From Hydrogenobacter sp. (GTDB lineage Bacteria; Aquificota; Aquificia; Aquificales; Aquificaceae): a stretch of DNA of 34,474 nt. Position 1 is the first letter of the stretch. Each line of letters starts with the position of its first letter. Shown here piece by piece: positions 1,199 through 33,358 of this stretch. The position numbers were made by a program, and so were the translations under genes. The stretch spans positions 1 to 34,474 of the forward strand of contig JAPYWJ010000012.1 in assembly GCA_028276405.1 (NCBI GenBank). The letters run 5' to 3'. The notes under the pieces were generated by a model. The model saw only the letters and a list, made by a program, of their open reading frames with translations. It was not told the origin of the DNA and made no database searches.

Positions 1199-1620
1199 AG
1201 GCCTTTTTTCTGGCTTTGCTGGCAAGCTTGGTATGGGGTTTAGCCCCTTCCATTTTTAAGTTAGTGATCAAAGAAGGTGTTCCACCCTCTGTTATCTTAA
1301 TATTTCACAACCTCTCTGCTTTTATTACAGCAGTTTTTATTACTGCTATACTTGGTGAATCCCCATGGGTAAATCTTAAGTACTTAATGTTTGCCTTCAT
1401 TGGAGGCTTTCTTTCAGGTTTTTTAGGTCTTTACCTGTTTTTCTTAGCTTTGCGTCATGGTGATGTTTCTATTGTTTCACCAGTAGCTTCCATATCACCC
1501 CTTTGGAGTGCTATGTTTGCCCATGTACTTCTCGGTGAACCTCTAAATTGGTCAAAGATCGCTGGCATAGTACTCATAATAATAGGTGTTTCCTTGTTGT
1601 CCTTACCTTTTCAAAAGTGA
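1195..1620 (+). CDS. Half-size EamA/DMT-family membrane transporter
   Basis: This 141-residue, very hydrophobic protein has about five predicted membrane segments and reads as a single EamA (DUF6) repeat. The landmarks are the N-terminal LVWGLAPSIFK and the C-terminal segment SPLWSAMFAHVLLGEPLNWSKIAGIVLIIIGV. Most drug/metabolite transporters contain two such repeats in about 300 residues. A single-repeat protein would have to dimerise, as small multidrug-resistance proteins do. Its substrate cannot be inferred. The start overlaps the xth stop as ATGA, so translation is probably coupled. Its TGA stop doubles as the TG of the ileS extended -10 element. Confidence 0.85.
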   Translation: MKAFFLALLASLVWGLAPSIFKLVIKEGVPPSVILIFHNLSAFITAVFITAILGESPWVNLKYLMFAFIGGFLSGFLGLYLFFLALRHGDVSIVSPVASISPLWSAMFAHVLLGEPLNWSKIAGIVLIIIGVSLLSLPFQK

Positions 1621-1626
1621 TAAAAT
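1618..1626 (+). promoter_or_regulatory. Extended -10 promoter of ileS (TGATAAAAT)
   Basis: TG-A-TAAAAT is an extended -10 element whose TGA is the stop codon of the preceding EamA gene. A weak TTGTCC sits 18 bases upstream of the hexamer. Transcription would start about 7 bases on, only 2-3 bases before the ileS ATG at 1636. No Shine-Dalgarno sequence lies between, which suggests a leaderless transcript. Confidence 0.5.
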
Positions 1627-1635
1627 ACACCTTTT

Positions 1636-4404
1636 ATGAGAGATTATAAAGAGACGCTAAACCTCCCCAAAACGGATTTTCCCATGAAAGCCAACTTACC
1701 AGAAAGGGAACCTGTCATTCTCAAAAAGTGGGAGGGTCTGTACAAAAAGTTAGAATCTGCTACTCAAGGTAGACCTCTTTTTGTGCTTCACGATGGACCT
1801 CCTTATGCTAACGGCAACATACACATAGGACATGCGCTAAACAAGGTGTTAAAAGATGTCATAAACAAATACATGCTCATGTCTGGCTACAGGATACATT
1901 ACATACCCGGCTGGGACTGTCATGGACTTCCCATAGAACAGCAGGTAGAAAAAGAGCTAAAAGCCAAGAAGATAGACAAAGAAAGCATAAGCAAAGTAGA
2001 ATTTAGAAGGCTTTGCAGAGAGTATGCCCAGAGGTTCGTGGATATTCAAAGAGAAGAGTTCAAAAGGTTAGGTGTACTGGGAAACTGGGAAGAGCCGTAC
2101 CTAACCATGGACCCCAACTATCAAGCAAGTGAGGTGAGAGAACTCGGAAGGCTCTTTAAAAAGGGGTTTGTGATAAAGAGCAAAAAACCCGTTTATTGGT
2201 GCATATACGATAAAACAGCAGAAGCAGAAGCAGAAGTAGAATACTACGAAAAACAGGACCCAAGTATTTATGTAAAGTTTCCTCTGGTAAATCAAAGAGA
2301 CACACATTTTGTCATATGGACTACTACACCGTGGACCCTTCCAGCAAACATGGGTGTTATGGTAGGAGAAGACTATGAGTATGTCTTTTACCAAGTGGGA
2401 GATGAGACATACATAATCGCTAAGGACATTGTTGAAGACTTTGAAAACATCACTCAGCTCAAAGGTACGGTCGTTAAAAGCGTTAAAGGGAAGGAACTTT
2501 TAGGACTTGAGTATGTATCACCTTACGGTAAGATAAACAAGGTTTATCCCTCAGAGTTTGTAGAGCTAAGCACTGGCACTGGCATAGTGCATATGGCACC
2601 GGGGCACGGTAGGGAAGACTACCTTGTGGGAATAAGGTACGGACTTGAACCCTTTGCACCTGTTGATGATGAAGGAAGATTTACGCAATCAGCGCCTGGC
2701 TTTTTGAGAGGCATAAAGGTATTTGATGCCAACAAACTCATAATAGAGGACCTAAAGAGTAGAGGACTTCTGCTTTATGAAGGTAGTATTACTCACTCTT
2801 ATCCCCACTGTTGGAGATGTAAAAACCCAGTTATATTCAGAGCCACATCTCAATGGTTTATAAGCATGGAGGAAAAGAGGGATGGAAAAACTCTTAGAGA
2901 ATTAGCCATTGCGGAGATAGACAAAGTCAAGTGGATACCACCCTACGGAATAAACAGAATAAGGTCTATGGTGGAAACCAGACCCGATTGGTGCATATCA
3001 AGACAACGCTATTGGGGAGTTCCCATAACTGTCTTTTACTGTAAAACTTGCGGCCATTTAATAGCAGAGGAGAAGGTATTTGAGCATGTGGCAAAACTTA
3101 TAGAAAACCACCCTTACGGTGCGGATGCATGGTTTGAGTTAACGGAAAAAGAACTTCTACCAGAGGGCTATAGATGTCCCAGGTGTGGAAACAATGAGTT
3201 TGAAAAGGAAGAAGACATTCTTGATGTGTGGTTTGATTCTGGCTCTTCCCATGCGTGCGTTTTGAGGAGGATGGGTATAGAAACAGCGGACATGTACTTG
3301 GAAGGGTCTGACCAACACAGAGGATGGTTCCAGTCATCACTCCTTGAGTCTGTAGCATCTTATGGAAAAGCCCCCTATAGGTCGGTGCTTACGCACGGCT
3401 TTACCGTTGACGAGCAAGGGAGGAAGATGTCCAAATCCTTGGGTAATGTGGTTTCACCGCAAGAAGTCATAAAAGATTTGGGAGCAGACATCTTAAGGCT
3501 TTGGGTGGTATCTGAGGATTACACTCAGGATGTAAAGTTAGGTAGGTCCATACTCCAAAAAATAGTGGAAGACTATAAGAAAATAAGAAACACCTTGAGG
3601 TTTTTACTGGCTAACCTTTATGACTTTACACCAAGGGCTTTTGTTCCTTATCAGCAGCTTCATCACTTTGACAGATGGATGATATCACGCCTTCAGCTCA
3701 CATTAAAGGAAGTACACAAACACTACAGAGAGTATGCCTTTCATAGAGTCTACCAGCTTGTGAGGAATTTCTGCAGTGTGGAACTTTCAAGTTTATATCT
3801 TGATGTGCTAAAGGATAGGCTCTACACTTACGCACCAGATTCTTGGGAAAGAAGGTCCGCTCAGACAGTTTTGTACCAACTTCTAAAGGCTTTGACCCTA
3901 TCCATAGCACCCTTTTTAAGTTTTACCGCGGAGGAGGTCTGGGAATACATAAGAAAGATAGATGAAAGTCTTGAAGAGAGCGTTTTCTTTCACAGCATAC
4001 CCTATCCAGACGATAGCTTGATAGATGAAGAACTGCTCACAGATTACTCCAAGCTTGAAAAATTAAGAGATGAGGTTATGAAAGTTATAGAGATGGCGAG
4101 AAAAAATAAGCACATAAACCATCCTTACGAAGCCAAGGTTTTTCTTTGGGGTAATGGGGAGTATATGGACATTGTAAAAAAGTACCAAGATTACATGAAG
4201 TTTTACCTCACGGTCAGCCAGGTAGAGCTATCAGAAGGTGGCTTTTACATAACCAACAGCGAGGAAGGTATGTTTGTAGGTGTGCAAAAAGCAGAGGGCA
4301 AGAAATGTCCAAGATGTTGGATGTATTACAGGGAGGAAGAGTTTGTAGGAGAACTTTGTAATAGATGCGCAACAGCAGTGGTTAAAATGGGTATGCAGGT
4401 GTAA
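1636..4404 (+). CDS. ileS: Isoleucine--tRNA ligase
   Basis: This 922-residue class I aminoacyl-tRNA synthetase charges tRNA-Ile. The [12 protein letters not shown] segment carries the HIGH signature at residues 63-66, and KMSKS follows at 597-601. Between them lies the CP1 editing domain, with the [10 protein letters not shown] motif, which hydrolyses mischarged Val-tRNA. CxxC pairs lie within and after this region. The C terminus has a zinc-binding CPRCW...CNRC module at roughly residues 890-912, typical of bacterial IleRS. Length is normal. The gene lacks a Shine-Dalgarno sequence and starts 10 bases after an extended -10. Confidence 0.98.
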
Positions 4405-6282: not shown

Positions 6283-7473
6283 ATGATAGATGCTTTAATA
6301 GACGAGGTGAGCAAAAGGCTCGAAGAAGGTCTTTGCGTTGAATTTCCTGACGGTAAAACCGTAGGTAAGGGTGCATGCAAAGTGAAGGTTAAAGACTCAA
6401 GTGCTGTTAGAAACATACTAAAAAACCCTGAAATGGGCTTTGGTGAAGCTTACATGAAAGGAGATATAGAATTACACGGAGACTTGGAGCGTTTTTTAAT
6501 AGCCTGCGTAAGCTACTTAAAAGAGAAGGAAGGTGATAAAGGTTTTAGAAATAGCCTGCTTAGGAATGCCTTGAAAATATTAGGTGTTTTGAAGTTCGTT
6601 GAAGGAAAAGAAGTAAGAAAACACTACGACCTGGGAAACGACTTTTACAGTCTCTGGCTTGACAGTTCCATGACTTACTCGTGTGCCTTTTTCTCTTCTA
6701 AAGACCAGAGTCTGGAGGAAGCGCAGGCTGAAAAAAGAAACATAATTTACGAGAAACTACAGCTTACAGATGGTGATAAACTGCTGGATATAGGCTGTGG
6801 ATGGGGTTCTATAATCCTTGAAGTACCAAAGCTCTATAATATAGAAACTGTAGGCATCACCCTTTCAAAAAATCAGTATGAGTATATAAAATCCAAAATA
6901 GAGATGGAGGGCTTAAAAGATAAAGTAAGGGTTTACCTTATGCATTATGAAGACCTGCCCCGTTTAGGAGAAAGGTTTAACAAGGTTGTTTCTGTAGGTA
7001 TGTTTGAGCATGTGGGCAAAGGAAGGCACAGAACCTTCTTTAAAGTAGTCAATAAGATCATACAAGATGGGGGGATATTTTTACTCCACACTATAGGGAA
7101 GGTTCTGCCAGAGACCCAAAGTGAATGGATAAGAAAGTACATATTCCCAGGTGGCTATATACCTGCTCTTACAGAGATACTCCAAGCTACAAAAGGTTTA
7201 GGCTTTAACCTTATAGACATAGATAATTGGCGACTCCACTACTATAGAACCCTAAAAGAGTGGAGAAGAAAGTTTTACCAACACAGAGAAAAAGTTATAC
7301 AAAAGTATGGTGAGGAGTTCTTCCGCATGTGGGAACTCTATCTTACATCTTCCGCTGTGTCTTTCCTAACAGCTTCTAATCATCTCTTCCAACTACTCTT
7401 TTCCAAAGGTGTGGTAAACGATTACCCTATAATGAAAAGGTACTTCTTGCCTGCTTATGAAGTGGTAAAATAG
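6283..7473 (+). CDS. cfa: Cyclopropane-fatty-acyl-phospholipid synthase family methyltransferase
   Basis: The 396-residue protein matches CFA synthase in length and order. It has an N-terminal fatty-acid-site domain, then RKHYDLGNDFYSLWLD and MTYSCAFF, which line the lipid site and include the family Cys. The SAM-binding LLDIGCGWGS motif and a catalytic-core VGMFEHVG segment follow. In characterised enzymes SAM methylates unsaturated acyl chains within membrane phospholipids to form cyclopropane rings. A GGGGGG ribosome site precedes ATG 6283. The acyl substrate in this organism is not known from sequence, and some relatives add methyl branches instead. The last codons hold the icd promoter. 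Confidence 0.92.
   Translation: MIDALIDEVSKRLEEGLCVEFPDGKTVGKGACKVKVKDSSAVRNILKNPEMGFGEAYMKGDIELHGDLERFLIACVSYLKEKEGDKGFRNSLLRNALKILGVLKFVEGKEVRKHYDLGNDFYSLWLDSSMTYSCAFFSSKDQSLEEAQAEKRNIIYEKLQLTDGDKLLDIGCGWGSIILEVPKLYNIETVGITLSKNQYEYIKSKIEMEGLKDKVRVYLMHYEDLPRLGERFNKVVSVGMFEHVGKGRHRTFFKVVNKIIQDGGIFLLHTIGKVLPETQSEWIRKYIFPGGYIPALTEILQATKGLGFNLIDIDNWRLHYYRTLKEWRRKFYQHREKVIQKYGEEFFRMWELYLTSSAVSFLTASNHLFQLLFSKGVVNDYPIMKRYFLPAYEVVK
7463..7471 (+). promoter_or_regulatory. Extended -10 promoter of icd (TGGTAAAAT)
   Basis: TG-G-TAAAAT ends 7 bases before the icd ATG at 7479, inside the last codons of cfa (stop TAG at 7471-7473). Initiation about 7 bases after the hexamer would put +1 at or next to the A of the start codon. 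There is no Shine-Dalgarno sequence before ATG 7479. Confidence 0.5.
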
Positions 7474-7478
7474 AAAAC

Positions 7479-8744
7479 ATGGTAAAGATGGATAATGTTT
7501 ACAGATGGGAAGGAAGCGTAAAACTACCACAGGAAGGCGAGTTTATTAGGCTGCGGGAAGACAAACACATACATGTACCCGACCAACCCATCATACCCTT
7601 CATAGAAGGTGATGGCATAGGCTCGGAGATTATGCCTGCCATGATACACATAGTAAATACTGCTGTAGAGAAGGCTTACAGTGGTTCAAGAACCATTCAC
7701 TGGGTGGAGCTTTTGGCAGGCGATAAAGCGGAGGAAAAAACAGGAAAGAGAATGCCAGAAGAAACCTTAGAGTTCTTAAAACAGGCAGTTGTAGGTATAA
7801 AGGGACCACTTGGAACACCTGTAGGAAAGGGAGGTAAGTCCCTTAACGCCATACTGCGCCAATCTATGGACTTTTACTCTGCCATAAGACCCGTCTATTG
7901 GCTTGGGCAACCTACCCCCATACCCCATCCAGAAAGGGTAAACTTAGCGGTTTTCAGGGAAAACTCTGATGATGTGTACATGTCTATAGAGTACATGCCT
8001 AAGGCTGAAAACACTGAGAAGGTCAGGAAATTTTTCATAGAAGAGATGGGGGTTTCTGAATATGCTCTTCCTGAGGATTGTGGAATTACGGTAAAACCCA
8101 TGAGCGAGTATAAAACAAAAAGACATGTAAGAAAAGCATTAAGATGGGCAATAGAAAATAACAAAAAAGTGGTAGCGGTTGTAGGAAAAGGAAACATAAT
8201 GAAAGCCACAGAAGGAGCCTTTATGAACTGGGCTTTTGAGGTGGCAAAAGAGCCTGAATTTGAAGGAAAAGTAATAACTGAAGGGGAGCCAAAAGATGGT
8301 CAAGTACTCATGGTCAAAGTCATCACCGACCAGATGCTCATGCAGTTAGTACTAAAGCCAGAAGCTTATGATGTAATAATCACACAGAACCTTAACGGAG
8401 ATTACATATCAGACTTGGCATCTGCTCTCGTAGGAGGTCCTGGTTTTGTACCCAGTGGAAATATAGGTGATGGATACGCTCTTTTTGAAAGTACGCATGG
8501 TACCGCTTACGACATAGCGGGTAAAGGTATAGCTAATCCTCTTTCCCTTACTCTTTCCGGAGCCATGATGTTAGAATATTTAGGTTGGAAAGAGGCAAGC
8601 CATCTCATATACCATGCTGTAAGGAAAGCCATAGAGGACAAACTTGGTACACCCGACATAGCTAGTGGCTTTAGAAGGCAAGGCATAACAGCAAAAGAAC
8701 TAAGTACCTTAGAGTTTGCTAAGGCTATAGCGGACAGGATTTAA
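7479..8744 (+). CDS. icd: Isocitrate dehydrogenase, NAD-type cofactor site
   Basis: The 421-residue protein is a prokaryotic homodimeric isocitrate dehydrogenase, with GDGIG near the N terminus, SLNAILRQ (isocitrate-binding Ser121, equivalent to the E. coli Ser113 phosphorylation site), Lys237 in VVGKGNIMK and the cofactor loop THGTAYDIAG. Residues that set NADP specificity in E. coli (Lys344, Tyr345, Val351, Arg395) align with Asp345, Ile346, Ala352 and Ser396 here. These are the residues of NAD-using members and of the engineered NAD-specific E. coli enzyme. In Aquificota this enzyme is known to run reductively in the reductive TCA cycle. A second in-frame ATG at 7488 is possible, but the promoter position favours 7479. 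Confidence 0.97.
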   Translation: MVKMDNVYRWEGSVKLPQEGEFIRLREDKHIHVPDQPIIPFIEGDGIGSEIMPAMIHIVNTAVEKAYSGSRTIHWVELLAGDKAEEKTGKRMPEETLEFLKQAVVGIKGPLGTPVGKGGKSLNAILRQSMDFYSAIRPVYWLGQPTPIPHPERVNLAVFRENSDDVYMSIEYMPKAENTEKVRKFFIEEMGVSEYALPEDCGITVKPMSEYKTKRHVRKALRWAIENNKKVVAVVGKGNIMKATEGAFMNWAFEVAKEPEFEGKVITEGEPKDGQVLMVKVITDQMLMQLVLKPEAYDVIITQNLNGDYISDLASALVGGPGFVPSGNIGDGYALFESTHGTAYDIAGKGIANPLSLTLSGAMMLEYLGWKEASHLIYHAVRKAIEDKLGTPDIASGFRRQGITAKELSTLEFAKAIADRI

Positions 8745-11986: not shown

Positions 11987-12736
11987 TTAGTACATACCAC
12001 CATTTACATGTATGACCTCTCCTGTTATGTACTCAGCCAAAGGAGAACAAAGAAAAAGCACAGCACCGGCTACATCCTCAGGCTTGCCAAATTTCCCCAA
12101 AGGTATTCTCCTTAGATACTCCTGCTTTAAGTCTTCTGGGAGAAGAGAAGTCATGTCTGTCTCTATAAAGCCCGGTGCTACCGCATTAACCGTTATGTTC
12201 CTGCTTGCCAGCTCCTTTGCCAAGCTTTTGGTAAAACCCACAAGACCCGCTTTTGTAGTGGAGTAGTTGACTTGCCCCGCATTTCCTGTAAAGCCCACAA
12301 CAGAAGATACATTTATGATTCTGCCCCACCTTTTTTTTACCATACCCTTTACAAAAAAAGATGTTATCAAGAAAGTGCCTGTTAGGTTCACTTTGAGCAC
12401 AGCTTCCCAATCTTCCAAGGACATCCTTAAAAAAAGTTTGTCCTTAGTTATGCCTGCATTGTTCACAAGTATGTCTATATCTCCTACTTGGCTTTCTACT
12501 TCTTCACAGCACGCTCTTATGGAATAAGGGTCTTCTAAGTTGATGCTCGTGCCAAAAGTAAGAACTGAGTATTTGTCAGAAAGCTCTTTTGCAGTCTCCT
12601 GGGCTCTTGATCTGTCTCTTCCTGTGATCACCACACTCGCACCTGCTGATGCAAGATACTCTGCTATTGCCTTACCTATACCCCTTGTGGAACCCGTAAT
12701 GAGTGCTTTTTTCCCCGATAGGTCTATGGAAAACAT
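11987..12736 (-). CDS. fabG: 3-oxoacyl-[acyl-carrier-protein] reductase
   Basis: This is a classical short-chain dehydrogenase that reduces 3-oxoacyl-ACP with NADPH in fatty acid elongation. With the start at 12736 it has 249 residues: the cofactor motif TGSTRGIG (14-21), NNAG (92-95), and the catalytic triad Ser145 (NVSS), Tyr158 and Lys162 (YSTTK). The C terminus is GEVIHVNGGMY. An upstream in-frame ATG at 12754 would add six residues, but it lies in the extended -10 element and is probably not transcribed. There is no Shine-Dalgarno sequence, so the mRNA may be leaderless. It heads the fabG-topA-ADP-ribosylglycohydrolase-hfq operon. Other SDR substrates are possible, but the match to FabG is close. 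Confidence 0.93.
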   Translation of the reverse strand: MFSIDLSGKKALITGSTRGIGKAIAEYLASAGASVVITGRDRSRAQETAKELSDKYSVLTFGTSINLEDPYSIRACCEEVESQVGDIDILVNNAGITKDKLFLRMSLEDWEAVLKVNLTGTFLITSFFVKGMVKKRWGRIINVSSVVGFTGNAGQVNYSTTKAGLVGFTKSLAKELASRNITVNAVAPGFIETDMTSLLPEDLKQEYLRRIPLGKFGKPEDVAGAVLFLCSPLAEYITGEVIHVNGGMY

Positions 12737-12741
12737 AGGGA

Positions 12742-12747
12742 TATAAT
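12742..12747 (+). promoter_or_regulatory. -10 element of the efflux operon (TATAAT)
   Basis: A perfect TATAAT lies 21 bases before the hlyD-like ATG, predicting a 15-base leader that contains AAAAGG as a ribosome site. No convincing -35 is seen. CATAGG (12734-12739) and CCTATG (12766-12771) flank the element as an inverted repeat. Confidence 0.4.
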
Positions 12748-12753
12748 ATAACA
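12745..12753 (-). promoter_or_regulatory. Extended -10 promoter of fabG (TGTTATATT)
   Basis: On the minus strand TG-T-TATATT ends 8 bases before the fabG ATG at 12736. It overlaps the opposing TATAAT of the efflux operon by three bases, so both promoters cannot be occupied at once. Confidence 0.45.
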
Positions 12754-12768
12754 TGAAAAGGTAAACCT

Positions 12769-13875
12769 ATGAGAAAGCTCTTCTTTCCGTTGGCGGTTTT
12801 ACTCACAGTTGGCGCTTTGTTGGTGTTTTTTGACAAGAGCAACAAAGTAAAGGTTTTTGTAGTAGAAGAAAGACCCATAAAAAAGGTAGTTTACGCTTCT
12901 GGTTATGTAAAGCCTGTAGATTATGTAGTAGTAAGGTCTGAAGTGTCTGGATATGTACAAAAGATCATGGTAAAGGAAGGAGACAAGGTAAAGAAAGGAC
13001 AGATACTTGCCATTGTAGACCCGGGATCACTAACTGCTTCCCTCCAAGAGATCGAGGAAAGACTAAAGCTCGCAGAGGACAGACTCAGAGAAGGTTCGGA
13101 CTACAGAAGAAACTTGACGGAACAGGTACAGATAGCCAAAAGAAACATGGAACAAGCACAAAGGTATCTTGAAAGAAGGAAAAGCCTTGCGGAAAAGGGA
13201 CTTATACCAAAAGAACAGTACGAAGAGGCAAAAAGAGCTTATGAGAATGCCAAAAGCGAGTATCAGCGAGCGCTCGCTGTGTATGAGGATGCCATAGCTT
13301 CCCTTTTTTCAGAAGAAAAAACCCTTTACGCAAACAAAGAGAGGATAAAAAGGGAGATAGAAAGGTATTACATAAGAAGTCCTGTTGATGGTATAGTGCT
13401 CAATAAATATGTGGAGGTAGGGGATTATGTGAATTACATGAGTGATAACAAGCTTTTCAGCATAGGAAATGAGAAAGATAAAGAGGTAGTTCTTAATGTA
13501 GACGAAGAATACGCTTCCATGATAAAGGAAGGTATGAAAGTATTTCTTTCTCTTGACATTTATCCAGATAAGGTGTTTGAAGGTACGGTAAAGCTTGTAA
13601 AGGAGGAGCTTGACAGGAACAAAAAAACCCTTGAGGTAAGAACAAGCGCACCACTGCCTGCAGAAGTTCCAGCAGGTGCTACCGTTGAAGCTAACATATT
13701 AGTGGAAGAGAAAAAGGCTTTGGTTATACCCACATCCGCTTACAAGGACGGATTCGTTTATAAGTACGAAGGAGTTAGAAAGGTCAAAGTGCCCGTCAAG
13801 GTAGGAACTCAGGTAGATGGATACATTGAGATAATTGAGGGTTTGAAAAAAGGTGATAAGGTGCTTATAGAATGA
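12769..13875 (+). CDS. HlyD/MacA-type periplasmic adaptor subunit
   Basis: The 368-residue membrane-fusion protein has an N-terminal membrane anchor (residues 3-21). A first half-lipoyl motif (SEVSGYVQKIMVKEGDKVKKGQIL) and a long charged alpha-helical hairpin of about residues 85-200 follow. The second half-lipoyl (IRSPVDGIVLNKYVEVGDYV) and the beta-barrel and membrane-proximal domains come last. Such adaptors link an inner-membrane transporter to an outer-membrane TolC-type channel; no TolC gene is in the window. The next two genes, overlapping by 4 bases and 1 base, encode the permease and ATPase. Gene order matches DevBCA-type exporters more than MacAB, where permease and ATPase are fused. 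The substrate is unknown. Confidence 0.88.
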   Translation: MRKLFFPLAVLLTVGALLVFFDKSNKVKVFVVEERPIKKVVYASGYVKPVDYVVVRSEVSGYVQKIMVKEGDKVKKGQILAIVDPGSLTASLQEIEERLKLAEDRLREGSDYRRNLTEQVQIAKRNMEQAQRYLERRKSLAEKGLIPKEQYEEAKRAYENAKSEYQRALAVYEDAIASLFSEEKTLYANKERIKREIERYYIRSPVDGIVLNKYVEVGDYVNYMSDNKLFSIGNEKDKEVVLNVDEEYASMIKEGMKVFLSLDIYPDKVFEGTVKLVKEELDRNKKTLEVRTSAPLPAEVPAGATVEANILVEEKKALVIPTSAYKDGFVYKYEGVRKVKVPVKVGTQVDGYIEIIEGLKKGDKVLIE

Positions 13876-22372: not shown

Positions 22373-23305
22373 ATGATACCCGATACAGAGCAGGAGTTAA
22401 TAAATCAGTACCTTAAGAAGGTAGCCAAAATACCCCTTCTGAAACCGGAGGAAGAAAAAGAAGTTGCCAAGCGTGCTAGGGAAGGCGACCAAGAAGCTTT
22501 TAAAAAACTTGTGGAGTCTAACCTCAGGTTCGTTATAAACATAGCGAAACAGTATTTGGGATACGGACTTCCCCTTTCTGAGCTTATAGCAGCTGGTAAT
22601 CATGGACTCATTGAGGCAGCAAAGAGGTTTGATCCGGACAGAGGTGTAAAATTTATATCCTACGCAGTTTGGTGGATAAGACAGGCTATCATGCAGGCGC
22701 TATCTCAACAAACTGGTGCGGTGAGAATACCCCTTAAGCAAGCCCATGTGATAAACAGGATAGGCAGTATATACAGCAAGTTATTCAGAGAGCTTGAAAG
22801 AGAACCCACACCCAAAGAGGTGGCGGAGGAATACTCAAGAGAGGTCATATCTAAAGAAATGGAAAAAGAGCTGGGAAGAAAACCCACAAAGGAAGAGATA
22901 GAAGAAAGGCTCAAGAAAGAAGGTTTGAAAATAAGTCCTGAAGAGGTAGAAAAGTGCATGCAGGTATGCAGGATACCCCTATCTTTGGATGCACCGGTAG
23001 GTGAGAACGAAGATACATTCTTCGTTGATTTTCTAAGCCAGCACGGAACCGCAGAAGTGGAAGAGAGGATCATAACCGAAGTGCTTGAGAAAGAGATAGA
23101 GGACATGTTAGATAGACTTCCTGAAAAGGAGAGGAGAGTAATAGAGCTACGGTTTGGACTCAGAGGCGAGGAACCAAGAACTCTGAGAGAAATAGGGGAC
23201 ATACTTAACATCTCCAGAGAAAGAGTCAGGCAGTTAGAAACGAGAGCACTTAGAAAACTTAGAAATATGGCTATAAAGAAACATCTGAAAGACTTTCTAA
23301 GCTGA
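22373..23305 (+). CDS. Second sigma-70 family sigma factor (group 2 type)
   Basis: The 310-residue sigma factor lacks region 1.1. It has region 1.2 (INQYLKKVAKIPLLKPEEE), complete region 2 (NLRFVINIAKQYLGYG to VKFISYAVWWIRQAI), region 3 and region 4 with SRERVRQLETRALRKLR. The strong likeness to RpoD in the -10 and -35 reading helices suggests similar promoters, as for RpoS-like group 2 factors. Region 3 has about 26 extra residues: ELEREPTPKEVAEEY (140-154) is followed by a similar ELGRKPTKEEIEERL (166-180). GAGGTAGGG precedes ATG, 4 bases after degP. It overlaps truB by one base. Its regulon cannot be read from here. Confidence 0.9.
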   Translation: MIPDTEQELINQYLKKVAKIPLLKPEEEKEVAKRAREGDQEAFKKLVESNLRFVINIAKQYLGYGLPLSELIAAGNHGLIEAAKRFDPDRGVKFISYAVWWIRQAIMQALSQQTGAVRIPLKQAHVINRIGSIYSKLFRELEREPTPKEVAEEYSREVISKEMEKELGRKPTKEEIEERLKKEGLKISPEEVEKCMQVCRIPLSLDAPVGENEDTFFVDFLSQHGTAEVEERIITEVLEKEIEDMLDRLPEKERRVIELRFGLRGEEPRTLREIGDILNISRERVRQLETRALRKLRNMAIKKHLKDFLS

Positions 23306-28462: not shown

Positions 28463-29532
28463 AGCCTGTGAAACCTCCTTAAAAAGGATAAGATAAGCTC
28501 GTACCAAACAATGACCATATCCCAGTTTATAGCCTCTGTGTTGTCATAGAAAGTGTGATTTATGGTAAAAGGTTCAGAACTCAAAAAAAGAGTCTGCACG
28601 CCTTTTTTTTTGAAAGGTATGTGATCGCTTTTTGCAGAGTTTTTAATAACAAAAGGTATGTCTATTTTCATTTCCTGAGTGTGCCTTAAAAACATCTCTG
28701 TGATGCGCTCACCGTTATATCCTTCTGCGTCTTTGTATATGACTGCTGGATGGTGCCAACCTATAGTATCCAAATTTATGCAGTAGTAAGTGTGTTTTAT
28801 ACCTTTATTCACATGGAAATTTGAACCTTCAAGTCCTAACACTTGGGCATCAGTAAGGAGAAACCTTATCCTATAAGGTATGTTGAAGTTTTTCTTGAGT
28901 TCGTCCGCCAAGAAAAGTAGCAGTAAAAAACCTACTCCGTTATTTACCGCACCAAACACCTCGGGTGCAGTATCCATATGTGCGGTTAAGTAAATAATTG
29001 GACCTCTTCCCACCTCAAAAAGTATGTTGCTACAGAGGATCTTCTCTTTCTTGGTCTTTACCGTGAGCTTCACATGAGCATCTTCTATGTGCTGAACATC
29101 CTCAAGCTTTATGTTTACGACGGGAATACTTGCTGTCTGTATACCACCATAGTAGTAAAGGTTAATCCTGTCCAAGTAAGTGATGCAAGCCTTTACACCC
29201 TCCCCCTTAAAGTCTGTACCTTCTTCTGATACTCTAAGAAGAGCCATATCTCCCTCTATGGGTTCTTTTTTCACATAGCCTTCGTAAACTCCACTTGGAC
29301 TTCCTGAGTAAGGAACAGCTTTTATGATAGTATTCCCAACTTTAAGGGTTGCCTCTACCGGAAGAAGTTTTTCTATATAAAAAAACTCTTCCCAGTATTT
29401 TATTCCTCTGTGTCTTAGCCACTTTTTTACGCTCCTCTTTGCAGTAGCGTTTCCCTCGCTTCCAGATAATCTGTTTATCCTTAAGATTTCATCTGCCAAG
29501 TGCTGAAATTCTTCCAAAGTTTCACTTCTCAT
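28459..29532 (-). CDS. M28 peptidase-like protein with altered active site
   Basis: The 357-residue protein has an M28 (aminopeptidase S/Y) fold with an inserted PA-like segment (about 65-160). The first zinc motif is intact (AHMD, His185-Asp187), as are Asp255 in NLDTIGW and His326 in NHTFYDN. But the bridging Asp of the usual GAxDN motif is Asn197 (GAVNNG). The usual Glu-Glu pair before GLxGS, general base and metal ligand, is Gln230-Val231 (DAQVLGLEGS). No signal peptide is seen, so it is probably cytoplasmic. It could be a non-catalytic relative or have a new activity. It overlaps ilvE by 11 bases and lolA by 4. Confidence 0.8.
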   Translation of the reverse strand: MRSETLEEFQHLADEILRINRLSGSEGNATAKRSVKKWLRHRGIKYWEEFFYIEKLLPVEATLKVGNTIIKAVPYSGSPSGVYEGYVKKEPIEGDMALLRVSEEGTDFKGEGVKACITYLDRINLYYYGGIQTASIPVVNIKLEDVQHIEDAHVKLTVKTKKEKILCSNILFEVGRGPIIYLTAHMDTAPEVFGAVNNGVGFLLLLFLADELKKNFNIPYRIRFLLTDAQVLGLEGSNFHVNKGIKHTYYCINLDTIGWHHPAVIYKDAEGYNGERITEMFLRHTQEMKIDIPFVIKNSAKSDHIPFKKKGVQTLFLSSEPFTINHTFYDNTEAINWDMVIVWYELILSFLRRFHRL

Positions 29533-30439
29533 AAACGGGCGTAAGCCAGACTTTGTATCTTTCTATGTTGCCCCTAACTGCATTAAAGTAAAGCTCTTGA
29601 AGTTCTCTGGTTATTATTCCCACATCACCCCTGCCTACTTTCCTGTTGTCCACCTCTATTATTGGAGTTACTTCTGCAGCAGTACCAGTCATGAAAAGCT
29701 CATCAGCAACGTACAGCTCGCTCCTTGCAACAGGTCTCTCTTCTACCTCTACCAAAAGCTCCTTTTTGAGAAGTTTTATGACCGCGCTTCTGGTGATACC
29801 CTCAAGTATGTGTTCCGAGTATGACGGGGTTATTGCCTTTGTGCCTCTTATGAGGAATATGTTTTCTCCAGAGCCTTCTGCAATAAATCCGTGCTGGTTG
29901 AGCATTATAGCTTCGTCGTATCCACCAAGAAGAGCTTCAGTTTTTGCTAAAGCGCTGTTTACATACGCACCCGCTACCTTCCACCTTGAAGGTATGGCGT
30001 TATCGTCGTTCCTCCTCCAAGAAGAAACCTTTACCCTTATACCCTTTGATGTATCTAAGTATCTACCAAAGTTGTAAGTGTATATGGCAACATCAGGTGT
30101 AAAGCCAATAAGCTTGGGGGTGAGTGCAAGGTCCTTAAAGTAAGCTATGGGTCTTATGTAAACATCCCATCTTATTTCACTTTTTCTGAGTATCTCTTTA
30201 GTGATTTCCACAAGCTCCTCTGCAGTGTAAGGAAGCTCCATAAACATAGCTCTTGCATTTTTCAGAAGTCTCTCGTAATGTTCCTTTGCAAAGAGTAGGT
30301 ACAACTGGTGCTCCTTTTCGTTCCAGTATGCTCTTATACCTTCAAACACTGCGGTTCCGTAATGAAAGGAGTTGGTTTTTATATTTATGTTCGCGTTTTC
30401 TACAGGGACTACCTTACCCTCAAAGAAGGCGTATTCCAT
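29522..30439 (-). CDS. ilvE: Branched-chain amino acid aminotransferase
   Basis: The 305-residue fold-type IV PLP enzyme transfers the amino group of glutamate to the keto acids of valine, leucine and isoleucine. Family features are FHYGTAVFEGIRAY near residues 26-38 and the catalytic Lys154 in RWKVAGAYVNS. GYDEAIML, EGSGENIFLI and TRSAVIKL follow, then the MTGTAAEVTPI block that contacts PLP phosphate. It starts at ATG 30439 with no Shine-Dalgarno sequence, a few bases after an extended -10, and heads the five-gene run to the PLD-HerA fusion. Confidence 0.96.
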   Translation of the reverse strand: MEYAFFEGKVVPVENANINIKTNSFHYGTAVFEGIRAYWNEKEHQLYLLFAKEHYERLLKNARAMFMELPYTAEELVEITKEILRKSEIRWDVYIRPIAYFKDLALTPKLIGFTPDVAIYTYNFGRYLDTSKGIRVKVSSWRRNDDNAIPSRWKVAGAYVNSALAKTEALLGGYDEAIMLNQHGFIAEGSGENIFLIRGTKAITPSYSEHILEGITRSAVIKLLKKELLVEVEERPVARSELYVADELFMTGTAAEVTPIIEVDNRKVGRGDVGIITRELQELYFNAVRGNIERYKVWLTPVYEK

Positions 30440-30465: not shown

Positions 30466-30471
30466 TATAAT
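30466..30471 (+). promoter_or_regulatory. hpf -10 element (TATAAT)
   Basis: TATAAT lies 23 bases before the hpf ATG, followed by an AAGGAGGT ribosome site at 30481-30488. It sits 12 bases from the opposing ilvE -10, in the place where the ilvE -35 region would lie. No clear -35 is seen. Confidence 0.4.
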
Positions 30472-30494
30472 TATTTCACTAAGGAGGTCAGAAA

Positions 30495-31097
30495 ATGAAC
30501 TTGGAGTTTATTGGAAAGGGTATTGAATGGACGGATGCTATGAAAGGCTTTGTGGAGGGCAAATTGGAAAGGCTGTCAAGGTTTTTAAAGGAAGCAGAAG
30601 AAGATCAAGTTGAAGTGGTGGTTACCCTTTCTACTACAAGAGCAAAGCAAAAGGACTTCGCAGGGGATAGCAGACCTACTCTTTACAGGGTAGACATAGA
30701 TATGTATCTCAAAACTTGGGGTGGTGGCAGTGTACACGCATGGGAGGAGGATGTGGATGTGTTTTCTGCACTTGATAGAGTTATGGACGAAGTGGAAAGG
30801 CAGATCATAAAGTTAAAACAGCGCAGACACGAGATAAGAAGAAGGGGAGCAAGGTTAAAAGAAGAGATACTAACAGCAGAGCTGATGCCTTCTGAAGAGA
30901 GGGAGCTTCCCCCTATAATAGAAGAGGAGCTTGTCGTAGAGAAACCCATAAGCCTTGAGGATGCCATCTTTGAGCTAAAAGACACGGGTGTGTACTTCCT
31001 TCCTTTTGTTGATGTGGAAACAGGCACCCTTAAAATACTTTACAGAAAGAGAGGAGGAAACCTTGGCGTCATAAACACCAAGTGTAAGATGCTCTGA
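30495..31097 (+). CDS. hpf: Ribosome hibernation promoting factor, long form
   Basis: The 200-residue protein is a long HPF. The N-terminal domain (about 1-105; MNLEFIGKGIEWTDAMKGFVEGKLERL) binds the 30S decoding region and has the basic helix near KLKQRRHEI. After an acidic linker, a C-terminal dimerisation domain (SLEDAIFELKDTGVYFLPFVD) pairs two ribosomes into inactive 100S particles. Short HPF/YfiA proteins of about 110 residues lack that domain. It has its own promoter and a strong ribosome site. Its TGA directly abuts the convergent lipoprotein stop. Confidence 0.95.
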   Translation: MNLEFIGKGIEWTDAMKGFVEGKLERLSRFLKEAEEDQVEVVVTLSTTRAKQKDFAGDSRPTLYRVDIDMYLKTWGGGSVHAWEEDVDVFSALDRVMDEVERQIIKLKQRRHEIRRRGARLKEEILTAELMPSEERELPPIIEEELVVEKPISLEDAIFELKDTGVYFLPFVDVETGTLKILYRKRGGNLGVINTKCKML

Positions 31098-31504: not shown

Positions 31505-32242
31505 TCATTTAGTATAACCTCTTGAATCTAAAAACTTCATGAAAATTTCAAGGGAGGTCAGCTCCTTTTCTCCAAGCCCGTTGTGAAGGCACTTGGTGAA
31601 ATACTCGACAAGTTCTTCTTGCTCAAAACCTTCTATTTCTACCTTTCCTTGTATAAGGTCCTTGAAAAAAGCCTTTTTTGATGCACTGCATAGCTCACTT
31701 ATTCTTTGGGCAAGCCACAGAGGTGCATCTTTCCTTACTATGAAAAGGGCAAAGACAAAGGGCAATTGGTGCTTTTTGTACCACTCATGACCAAGGTCGT
31801 AAATGTAAGGAAACCTACCTCTCTTTTTCTCAAGTAGTGCCTCATCACCTATGAGCAAAAAACAGTCTGCCTTTTGTATTTCTTCCGTATAAATGGGTTT
31901 AAGACCGTATATCTCTTCAAGTACATAAACGCTTAGGTATTTGGAAGTGAGGGAGTTGGGCGTAAGATACACATTTTTAACCTCAGCAATAGGCACTTTG
32001 GAAAAGATCAAAACAGAGCAGGCATATTCCTTAGAGGATATGGAAATGTCAGGCACATAGCTATAGATATGGGGATTTATAATATACTCCGCTGAGGAAA
32101 CTATTCCCGCTTGGATATTTCCTTCTCTTAGCTTAAGTACAAGCTCAGAGGGATGCCCGTATACGAGCTGTATGTTTGGGTCTTCCCACTTGTAAAAAAG
32201 AGGCATGGTGTTTAAGTAAGCAACCTTTCCTACTTTTACCAT
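31505..32242 (-). CDS. mqnA: Chorismate dehydratase
   Basis: The 245-residue protein has the periplasmic-binding-protein-like fold of MqnA. It starts VGKVAYLNTMPLFY and continues with GHPSELVLKLREGNIQAGIVSSAEYI, SISSKEYACSVLIFSK and FLLIGDEAL, all typical of the family. It dehydrates chorismate to 3-enolpyruvylbenzoate, the first committed step of the futalosine menaquinone pathway also served by mqnC at 18627. MqnD is a sister family, but the N-terminal AYLNTMP favours MqnA. It overlaps trpD by 7 bases. Both genes use chorismate-derived precursors. Confidence 0.92.
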   Translation of the reverse strand: MVKVGKVAYLNTMPLFYKWEDPNIQLVYGHPSELVLKLREGNIQAGIVSSAEYIINPHIYSYVPDISISSKEYACSVLIFSKVPIAEVKNVYLTPNSLTSKYLSVYVLEEIYGLKPIYTEEIQKADCFLLIGDEALLEKKRGRFPYIYDLGHEWYKKHQLPFVFALFIVRKDAPLWLAQRISELCSASKKAFFKDLIQGKVEIEGFEQEELVEYFTKCLHNGLGEKELTSLEIFMKFLDSRGYTK

Positions 32243-33255
32243 AACCTTTTGGACATTTCTACAAATTTTGTGAGCTTCTCGTAAGCTTTGCCACTGTGTA
32301 TAGATTCCTTTGCCATCTCCAAGGCAGTTTTTTTGTCTTCTGTAATGCCAGAGACTATAAGCCCAAACATGGCATTCAAAAGCACCATGTAATATGCAGG
32401 AGATTCGTCTCCTTTAAGTACAGATATAGCAATCTTTGCGCTTTCTTCTACACCCGATACGCATACGGAACTTAGAGGGTATCTTTTAAATCCCACATCT
32501 TCTGGCACAAACTCGTAAAGTAGAACTTCTCCACTTTCTCTTAGGTGTGCTATCTTGGTTGCTGAAGATATGGAGACCTCATCTATGCCATCCTTACCGT
32601 GCACAACTAAAGCACTTTTACAGCCAAGACCTTTAAGAGCGTGAGCTATTTTATCAACAAGCCTTTCGGAAAAAACTCCAAGCAACTGTCTCTTAGCACC
32701 CGCTGGATTAGAAAGGGGACCTACCAAGTTAAACACGGAACGCACACCTACCTCCTTTCTGGGAGCTAAAACCCTCTTCATAGCAGGATGAAAGATGGGT
32801 GCAAACATAAAGCCTATACCGAGCTCTTCTATCATGATAGCTACCTTATCTGGTGGAAGGTCTATCTTTGCCCCTATGTATTCCAGGAGGTCTGCGCTTC
32901 CGCTTTTTGAGGATACGGATCTGTTACCGTGTTTGGCTACTTTTACACCGGCACCTGCAAGCACGAAGGCTGTAATAGTAGACACATTAAAAGTTCCCTG
33001 CATATCCCCACCAGTACCACAAGTGTCTACAATGTCATCTCCTTGTGAAACATGTACTTTTGTGGCTAGCTCTCTGAAGACTTCCGCGGCACCTTCTATC
33101 TCTTCTACGCTTTCCCCCTTCATCTTGGTTGCTATGATGAAGGCTCCTATCTGTGCATCCGTAGCCCTTCCCTCCACTATATCCCTTATAGCGCTCTTGA
33201 TCTCTTCTTTTGCCAGGTTCTCAAAGTTGGACAGTTTGTAAAGTATTTCCTTCAT
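32236..33255 (-). CDS. trpD: Anthranilate phosphoribosyltransferase
   Basis: The 339-residue enzyme joins anthranilate and phosphoribosyl pyrophosphate in tryptophan synthesis. Signature elements are DTCGTGGDMQGTFNVST (PRPP loop), KHGNRSVSSKSGSADLLE, the FAPIFHPAMKRVLAPRKEVGVRSVFNLVGPLSNPA block that binds anthranilate, and VHGKDGIDE. The start codon lies 7 bases after the CCA end of tRNA-Asp, with no Shine-Dalgarno sequence, so the mRNA may be freed by tRNA processing. No other trp gene is present, so the tryptophan pathway is scattered in this genome, as is common in Aquificota. Confidence 0.96.
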   Translation of the reverse strand: MKEILYKLSNFENLAKEEIKSAIRDIVEGRATDAQIGAFIIATKMKGESVEEIEGAAEVFRELATKVHVSQGDDIVDTCGTGGDMQGTFNVSTITAFVLAGAGVKVAKHGNRSVSSKSGSADLLEYIGAKIDLPPDKVAIMIEELGIGFMFAPIFHPAMKRVLAPRKEVGVRSVFNLVGPLSNPAGAKRQLLGVFSERLVDKIAHALKGLGCKSALVVHGKDGIDEVSISSATKIAHLRESGEVLLYEFVPEDVGFKRYPLSSVCVSGVEESAKIAISVLKGDESPAYYMVLLNAMFGLIVSGITEDKKTALEMAKESIHSGKAYEKLTKFVEMSKRLW

Positions 33256-33262
33256 AGCAAAG

Positions 33263-33340
33263 TGGCGGAGCCGACGGGACTTGAACCCGCGCCCTCCGGC
33301 TTGACAGGCCGGCGTTCTGACCGGGCTGAACTACGGCTCC
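33263..33340 (-). tRNA. tRNA-Asp (anticodon GTC)
   Basis: The minus strand folds as a complete cloverleaf. The acceptor stem GGAGCCG/CGGCTCC has discriminator G and an encoded CCA at 33263-33265. The D arm contains TAGTTCAGCCCGGTCAGA. The anticodon stem CCGGC/GCCGG closes the loop CTGTCAA with anticodon GTC. The T arm GCGGG-TTCAAGT-CCCGT has the standard TTC. Length is 78 with CCA. It lies between sco and trpD in the same direction. Confidence 0.97.
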
Positions 33341-33349
33341 TCAACAATT

Positions 33350-33358
33350 ATTATATCA
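33350..33358 (-). promoter_or_regulatory. Extended -10 promoter of tRNA-Asp (TGATATAAT)
   Basis: On the minus strand TG-A-TATAAT ends 9 bases before the mature tRNA 5' end. Its TGA is the stop codon of the sco gene, so gene end and promoter share sequence. The likely start is about 3 bases before the tRNA, leaving almost no 5' leader for RNase P to remove. Confidence 0.55.

Follow-up and report, generated by a model that had tools for sequence, protein, structure and literature searches.

A stretch of 34,474 nucleotides from the heat-loving bacterium Hydrogenobacter sp. (contig JAPYWJ010000012.1; the whole stretch is referred to as the window) carries four genes, ileS, icd, fabG and ilvE, with a promoter-like -10 box almost directly before the ATG. 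The question is whether these genes are expressed as leaderless mRNAs. The original prediction placed extended -10 boxes 7–9 bases before the four start codons, and all four boxes were re-extracted at these positions, by direct reading and by script. The features are as follows.

1618–1626, plus strand: extended -10 box of ileS, TGATAAAAT, 9 bases 5' of the ATG at 1636
1636–4404, plus strand: ileS, no Shine–Dalgarno (SD) sequence in its start context; TIGR00392 match above the cut-off
7463–7471, plus strand: extended -10 box of icd, TGGTAAAAT, 7 bases 5' of the ATG at 7479
7479–8744, plus strand: icd, no SD; its best NCBIfam match, TIGR00183, scores 460.7 bits and misses the cut-off of 567.3
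12753–12745, minus strand: extended -10 box of fabG, TGTTATATT, 8 bases 5' of the ATG at 12736
11987–12736, minus strand: fabG, no SD, with the start reset to 12736; TIGR01830 match above the cut-off
30456–30448, minus strand: extended -10 box of ilvE, TGCTATAAT, 8 bases 5' of the ATG at 30439
29522–30439, minus strand: ilvE, no SD; TIGR01122 match above the cut-off

The lack of an SD, also predicted, was confirmed: no SD-like tetramer is present at -17 to -4 in any of the four genes. In the survey of window starts, 35 starts were tried and lolA, whose start had been placed wrongly, was left out. Among the 34 usable starts, a -10 box (TA...T, at least five of six positions matched, 5–10 bases before the start) is found only in ileS, icd, fabG and ilvE. 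NCBIfam profile models were tried on ten window proteins, and most of the other gene labels in this survey are presumed ones. The longest open reading frame (ORF) of fabG starts at 12754, and its first six codons lie inside the promoter. FabG models align from residue 10–17 of this ORF, and a start at 12736 agrees with the FabG N-terminus. Therefore, the start was set to 12736. On the opposite strand of the fabG promoter (12742–12755, plus strand), TATAAT is located 5 bases before the ATG of a three-codon frame, which sits just upstream of an HlyD-like gene at 12769.

The genes with an SD have a different layout, as shown by hpf, which is divergent from ilvE.

30466–30471, plus strand: -10 box TATAAT of the hpf promoter
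30481–30487, plus strand: SD AAGGAGG of hpf, followed by the ATG at 30495

Strong GGAGG sites had been noted for hpf, rpoD, hfq and a ferredoxin gene, and AAGGAGG is read in all four. Their -10 boxes lie at 23 (hpf), 26/28 (rpoD), 28 (hfq) and 29 (ferredoxin) bases. Where a window gene has a -10 box as well as an SD-like site, the box lies at 16–39 bases; the exception is one TTG-start gene with the box at 11 bases. Besides rpoD, the window encodes a second sigma-70 family factor (22373–23305, plus strand); among the matches listed, it reached the cut-off of a superfamily model only.

The genome consists of 1.36 Mb in 55 contigs, and k denotes the spacing in bases from the box to the start codon. 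TATAAT followed by ATG at k = 6–9 occurs 177 times genome-wide, against 77 times at k = 16–19 and 47 times for the reversed pattern. Single spacings were counted in 418 kb (20 stretches and the window), where the TATAAT–ATG count is highest at k = 6–9 (15, 14, 18 and 12, with a background of about 5.5), and the peak may reach k = 10. No peak at k = 6–9 was found in the 418 kb with GTG, TTG, CTG or any further codon examined, and only ATG shows it. Leaderless starts at GTG or TTG were rejected, since they have no spacing peak. When 20 rearrangements of TATAAT were compared, the true hexamer gave the highest near/far ratio (2.7), and the second-ranked ATAATT (2.15) is TATAAT shifted by one base.

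With our own simple codon-usage caller and scorer, by which short genes are missed, 328 genes were called. TAWAAT is located at k = 5–10 in 51 of the 328 genes, whereas the shifted windows give 11, 8 and 3. An SD is present in only one of these 51 candidates versus 104 of the 328 genes overall. If one mismatch is allowed, the number of genes with a -10 box at k = 5–10 rises to 68 of the 328, compared with 13.8 ± 3.3 in shuffled leaders and 6–18 in shifted windows, some of which are probably real leadered promoters. Of the 68, 67 have no SD, and among those 67 the start codon is ATG in 66. According to the comparison with the shuffled and shifted counts, roughly one gene in six would be leaderless-like. 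The share is 48/169 among operon-first genes versus 16/134 among internal genes (p = 6e-4). In the same sample, most -10 boxes of SD genes are located at k = 20–40, and those of SD-less genes at k = 5–10. The genome-wide spacing and the near-exclusion of SD and proximal box thus support the earlier proposal that two initiation classes coexist.

The evidence on the proposed common extended layout is mixed. TGn precedes the box at all four chosen sites, but only at 11 of the 51 TAWAAT candidates. The latter frequency is higher than an assumed chance level of 6% (p = 2e-4), yet it is similar to that of -10 boxes located further upstream of genes (11/45). The TGn common to the four sites is partly the result of selection, because the earlier reader picked those sites. 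The extended TG is a minority feature among the candidates and probably not a general mark of them. A -35 element was also sought, and no aligned TTGACA-like columns were found.

Orthologues were collected from 31 genomes of one family (f1), with 30 loci per gene. The nearest named ilvE is that of Hydrogenobacter sp. KUB_Bin01 (92%), and f1 is taken as Aquificaceae, because the other close ilvE hits are titled Aquificaceae or Aquificota. A partial ileS (L049), paralogues of ileS (L050) and icd (L079, L080) and a truncated fabG (L180) were left out, and fabG of genome G024 is outside the 30 loci. For fabG, a proximal box without SD is present in 20 of 30 loci (k = 5–10), the other ten have TATAAT at k = 11–12, and an SD is present in none. 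For ilvE, the corresponding number is 22 of 30 (k = 5–10), with five more boxes at k = 11–13 and an SD in three. Among the ileS orthologues, 18 of 28 show the proximal box and no SD, nine have an SD and one has neither; for icd, 6 of 28 show the proximal box and no SD, 19 have an SD and three have neither. Shifted-window controls over the orthologues of the four genes gave 11/116 and 10/116. The box is retained among orthologues though the flanking sequences differ. Thus, ilvE and fabG have a conserved proximal box in relatives, whereas its conservation is patchy for ileS and limited for icd.

The best explanation for the four genes is leaderless initiation from housekeeping-sigma promoters at the start codon, which we consider very probable. 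The genome-wide spacing, the near-exclusion of the SD, the operon-first bias and the conservation in relatives all argue for the probable leaderless mRNAs of the original prediction. The reading is firmest for ilvE and fabG; ileS is a likely case and icd a plausible one. The promoter of the housekeeping sigma factor would have its -10 box 6–10 bases before the start codon, and with this spacing transcription should start at the A of the ATG or 0–3 bases before it. The mRNA would then have neither leader nor SD, and its translation would begin at the 5' AUG, presumably through initiation by 70S ribosomes or with help from IF2. Both modes of initiation on leaderless mRNA are known from work on other bacteria. 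The second class of genes would use a -10 box 20–40 bases upstream and a GGAGG-type SD.

The positions of ileS and icd bring in another explanation. Same-strand genes end 15 bases (ileS) and 5 bases (icd) upstream. The TGA within the ileS box TGATAAAAT is the stop codon of an upstream EamA-like ORF (1195–1620), and the icd box TGGTAAAAT overlaps the stop codon TAG (7471–7473) of the upstream ORF 6283–7473. Since the boxes overlap these stop codons, readthrough transcripts are possible for both genes. Both could be translated mainly on upstream-gene transcripts, through stop–start coupling or reinitiation, with the proximal box as an extra or weak promoter. The upstream ORFs ending at 1620 and 7473 fit such coupling, and so does one relative (L024), whose ileS lacks both box and SD and directly follows the upstream stop codon. 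However, the box is retained in 18 of the 28 ileS orthologues compared with about 10% in shifted windows, and the genome-wide class is skewed to first genes. We regard coupling as the main route for ileS and icd as unlikely, although it is the most serious of the alternatives.

Two further explanations concern the box itself. An AT bias upstream of SD-less genes has been discussed as a Pribnow box or an S1 site in the accessible part of PMC5397173. The AT-rich tract could only reduce structure or bind ribosomal protein S1 on leadered mRNAs, with no promoter present. This is very unlikely, because none of the rearrangements tried reaches the excess of the true hexamer, its one-base shift coming next, the spacing is fixed and specific to ATG, and first genes are favoured. 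Many TATAAT-like strings occur in an AT-rich genome, and random matches are certain to be among the candidates (about 14 of 328 genes in the shuffles). Nevertheless, chance as the whole explanation is contradicted by the controls and is hardly credible, given an approximately 5-fold excess and the conserved position in relatives. Leaderless initiation is therefore preferred.

The distribution of the pattern was surveyed in 61 genomes of the order (28 of f1, 26 of f3 and seven of f2). TATAAT–ATG is more frequent at k = 6–9 than at k = 16–19 in 28/28 f1, 2/26 f3 and 4/7 f2 genomes, and the median ratios are 2.16, 0.86 and 1.45, respectively. The contrast between f1 and f3 gives p = 3e-10, with kinship among the genomes ignored. 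The f2 genomes have just 5–16 matches of the TATAAT pattern each, counts too small to judge this family. The enrichment is clear in f1 and absent in f3. For the TAAAAT box, with the reversed pattern as the control, a clear enrichment is observed in most f1 genomes (122 versus 52 in our genome), and it is weak in the groups g5 and g7. Several f3 genomes are also above the control (for example, 433 versus 317 in G018), so leaderless-type genes may occur in f3 as well. In almost every genome of f1, f2 and f3, the SD counts are higher than their reversed control.

Individual genes outside f1 were inspected by eye. In f3, GAGG or GGAGG precedes the ilvE start in 16/16 loci, most of which show a -10-like box at a greater distance, and most fabG loci have a box further upstream and an SD-like site. 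In f2, fabG looks leaderless in 3/4 loci, and ilvE is SD-led with a GTG start in 4/4. Among named loci of Desulfurobacteriaceae or relatives (L203–L213), ilvE is SD-led in 11/11.

Leaderless genes of this kind are not new here, since Aquificae are already listed as bearing them in the accessible part of an earlier study, in which leaderless genes were predicted at 20.7–32.4% in two of five Aquificae genomes (Zheng et al., 2011; PMC3160421). The same part describes TA-led genes, with a -10-like box about 10–12 bases before the start, a TAtaaT pattern in Aquificae and Aquifex aeolicus as an example. The boxes described here resemble these in their place shortly before the start and in their TAtaaT-type pattern. 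The gene-by-gene orthologues, the contrast between f1 and f3 over 61 genomes, the minority status of TG and the tRNA–trpD case described below go beyond what that part contains. As far as the accessible texts go, mRNAs starting at or near the AUG beside SD-led genes are also known in mycobacteria (PMC4633059), Streptomyces (PMC4681348) and Deinococcus-Thermus (PMC3160421); those of mycobacteria and Streptomyces were mapped by RNA-seq, whereas ours are known from sequence alone. For A. aeolicus, SD (GGAGG) and Pribnow motifs and a dRNA-seq data set were described (Lechner et al., 2014; PMC4227106), and the word 'leaderless' does not occur in the accessible text. An intact anti-SD is listed for Aquificae in the accessible part of PMC10783764.

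The present analysis ties the 2011 prediction to individual, testable genes. Within one order, ilvE, fabG, ileS and trpD have the look of leaderless genes in some lineages and of SD-led or tRNA-led genes in others. Aquificota are often invoked in arguments on early translation. The differences between the families suggest gains or losses of leaderless usage inside an order rather than its simple inheritance.

The trpD gene of the window lies behind a tRNA gene.

33350–33355, minus strand: -10 box TATAAT of tRNA-Asp, part of TGATATAAT, 9 bases 5' of the tRNA gene
33263–33340, minus strand: tRNA-Asp with encoded CCA; 7 bases separate its end from the trpD ATG
32236–33255, minus strand: trpD, with neither an SD nor, within 40 bases, a -10 box; TIGR01245 match above the cut-off

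In all five genomes of the genus searched, tRNA-Asp precedes trpD, with gaps of 7, 7, 7, 8 and 6 bases, an SD-less start and no promoter in between, as in tRNA punctuation. Elsewhere in the family, tRNA-Asp is found before trpD in none of 24 orthologues (L290, a distant paralogue, was left out). Of these 24, ten have a -10 box at k = 5–10, six at k = 11–13 and seven neither, and one has no nearby ATG. On the simplest reading, the tRNA took the place of a leaderless trpD promoter, and 3' processing of the tRNA would make the mRNA end. A fused tRNA–trpD transcript or an effect of the compact genome would look the same. Folding of tRNA-Asp with the trpD start gave no greater stability than shuffled sequences, an uninformative result.

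In human mitochondria, the 5' end of an mRNA is set by excision of the upstream tRNA, leaving little or no leader (Ojala, 1981, as cited in the accessible part of PMC10941002). The case here resembles it, but the organism is a bacterium, 6–8 bases would stay and the processing is putative. A search of open-licence papers found none on processed leaderless mRNAs behind bacterial tRNAs.

ATG ORFs of at least 60 codons starting at most 15 bases after a tRNA were also counted. In our sample they follow 6 of 21 tRNA genes, four of them with no intervening SD, and in G042 they follow 6 of 14, two of them with no intervening SD. The numbers are 2 of 9 in G001, where the single case lacking an SD has a -10 box of its own in the gap, and 0 of 14 in the f3 genome G018. 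Our sample and G042 pooled differ from G018 (p = 0.011, Fisher). Three cases of our genome have a long ATG ORF and no SD in the gap.

L298:4817–4903: tRNA-Leu, ending 5 bases before the ORF
L003:11194–11268: tRNA-Arg, ending 7 bases before the ORF
L015:1914–2003: tRNA-Ser, ending 12 bases before the ORF

The genes behind them presumably resemble murJ, a macrodomain gene and carA, respectively. We tentatively propose, as a conjecture somewhat short of even chances, two routes to leaderless or near-leaderless mRNA, one by promoters placed at the start codon and one by excision of a tRNA. The trpD promoter would have been replaced by tRNA-Asp with a leader of 6–8 bases left, and the genes behind tRNA-Leu, tRNA-Arg and tRNA-Ser perhaps follow the same route. 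At another tRNA gene, tRNA-Val (L307, around 6571, minus strand), the 17-base gap to the downstream ORF contains a complete TATAAT, 8 bases before the ATG.
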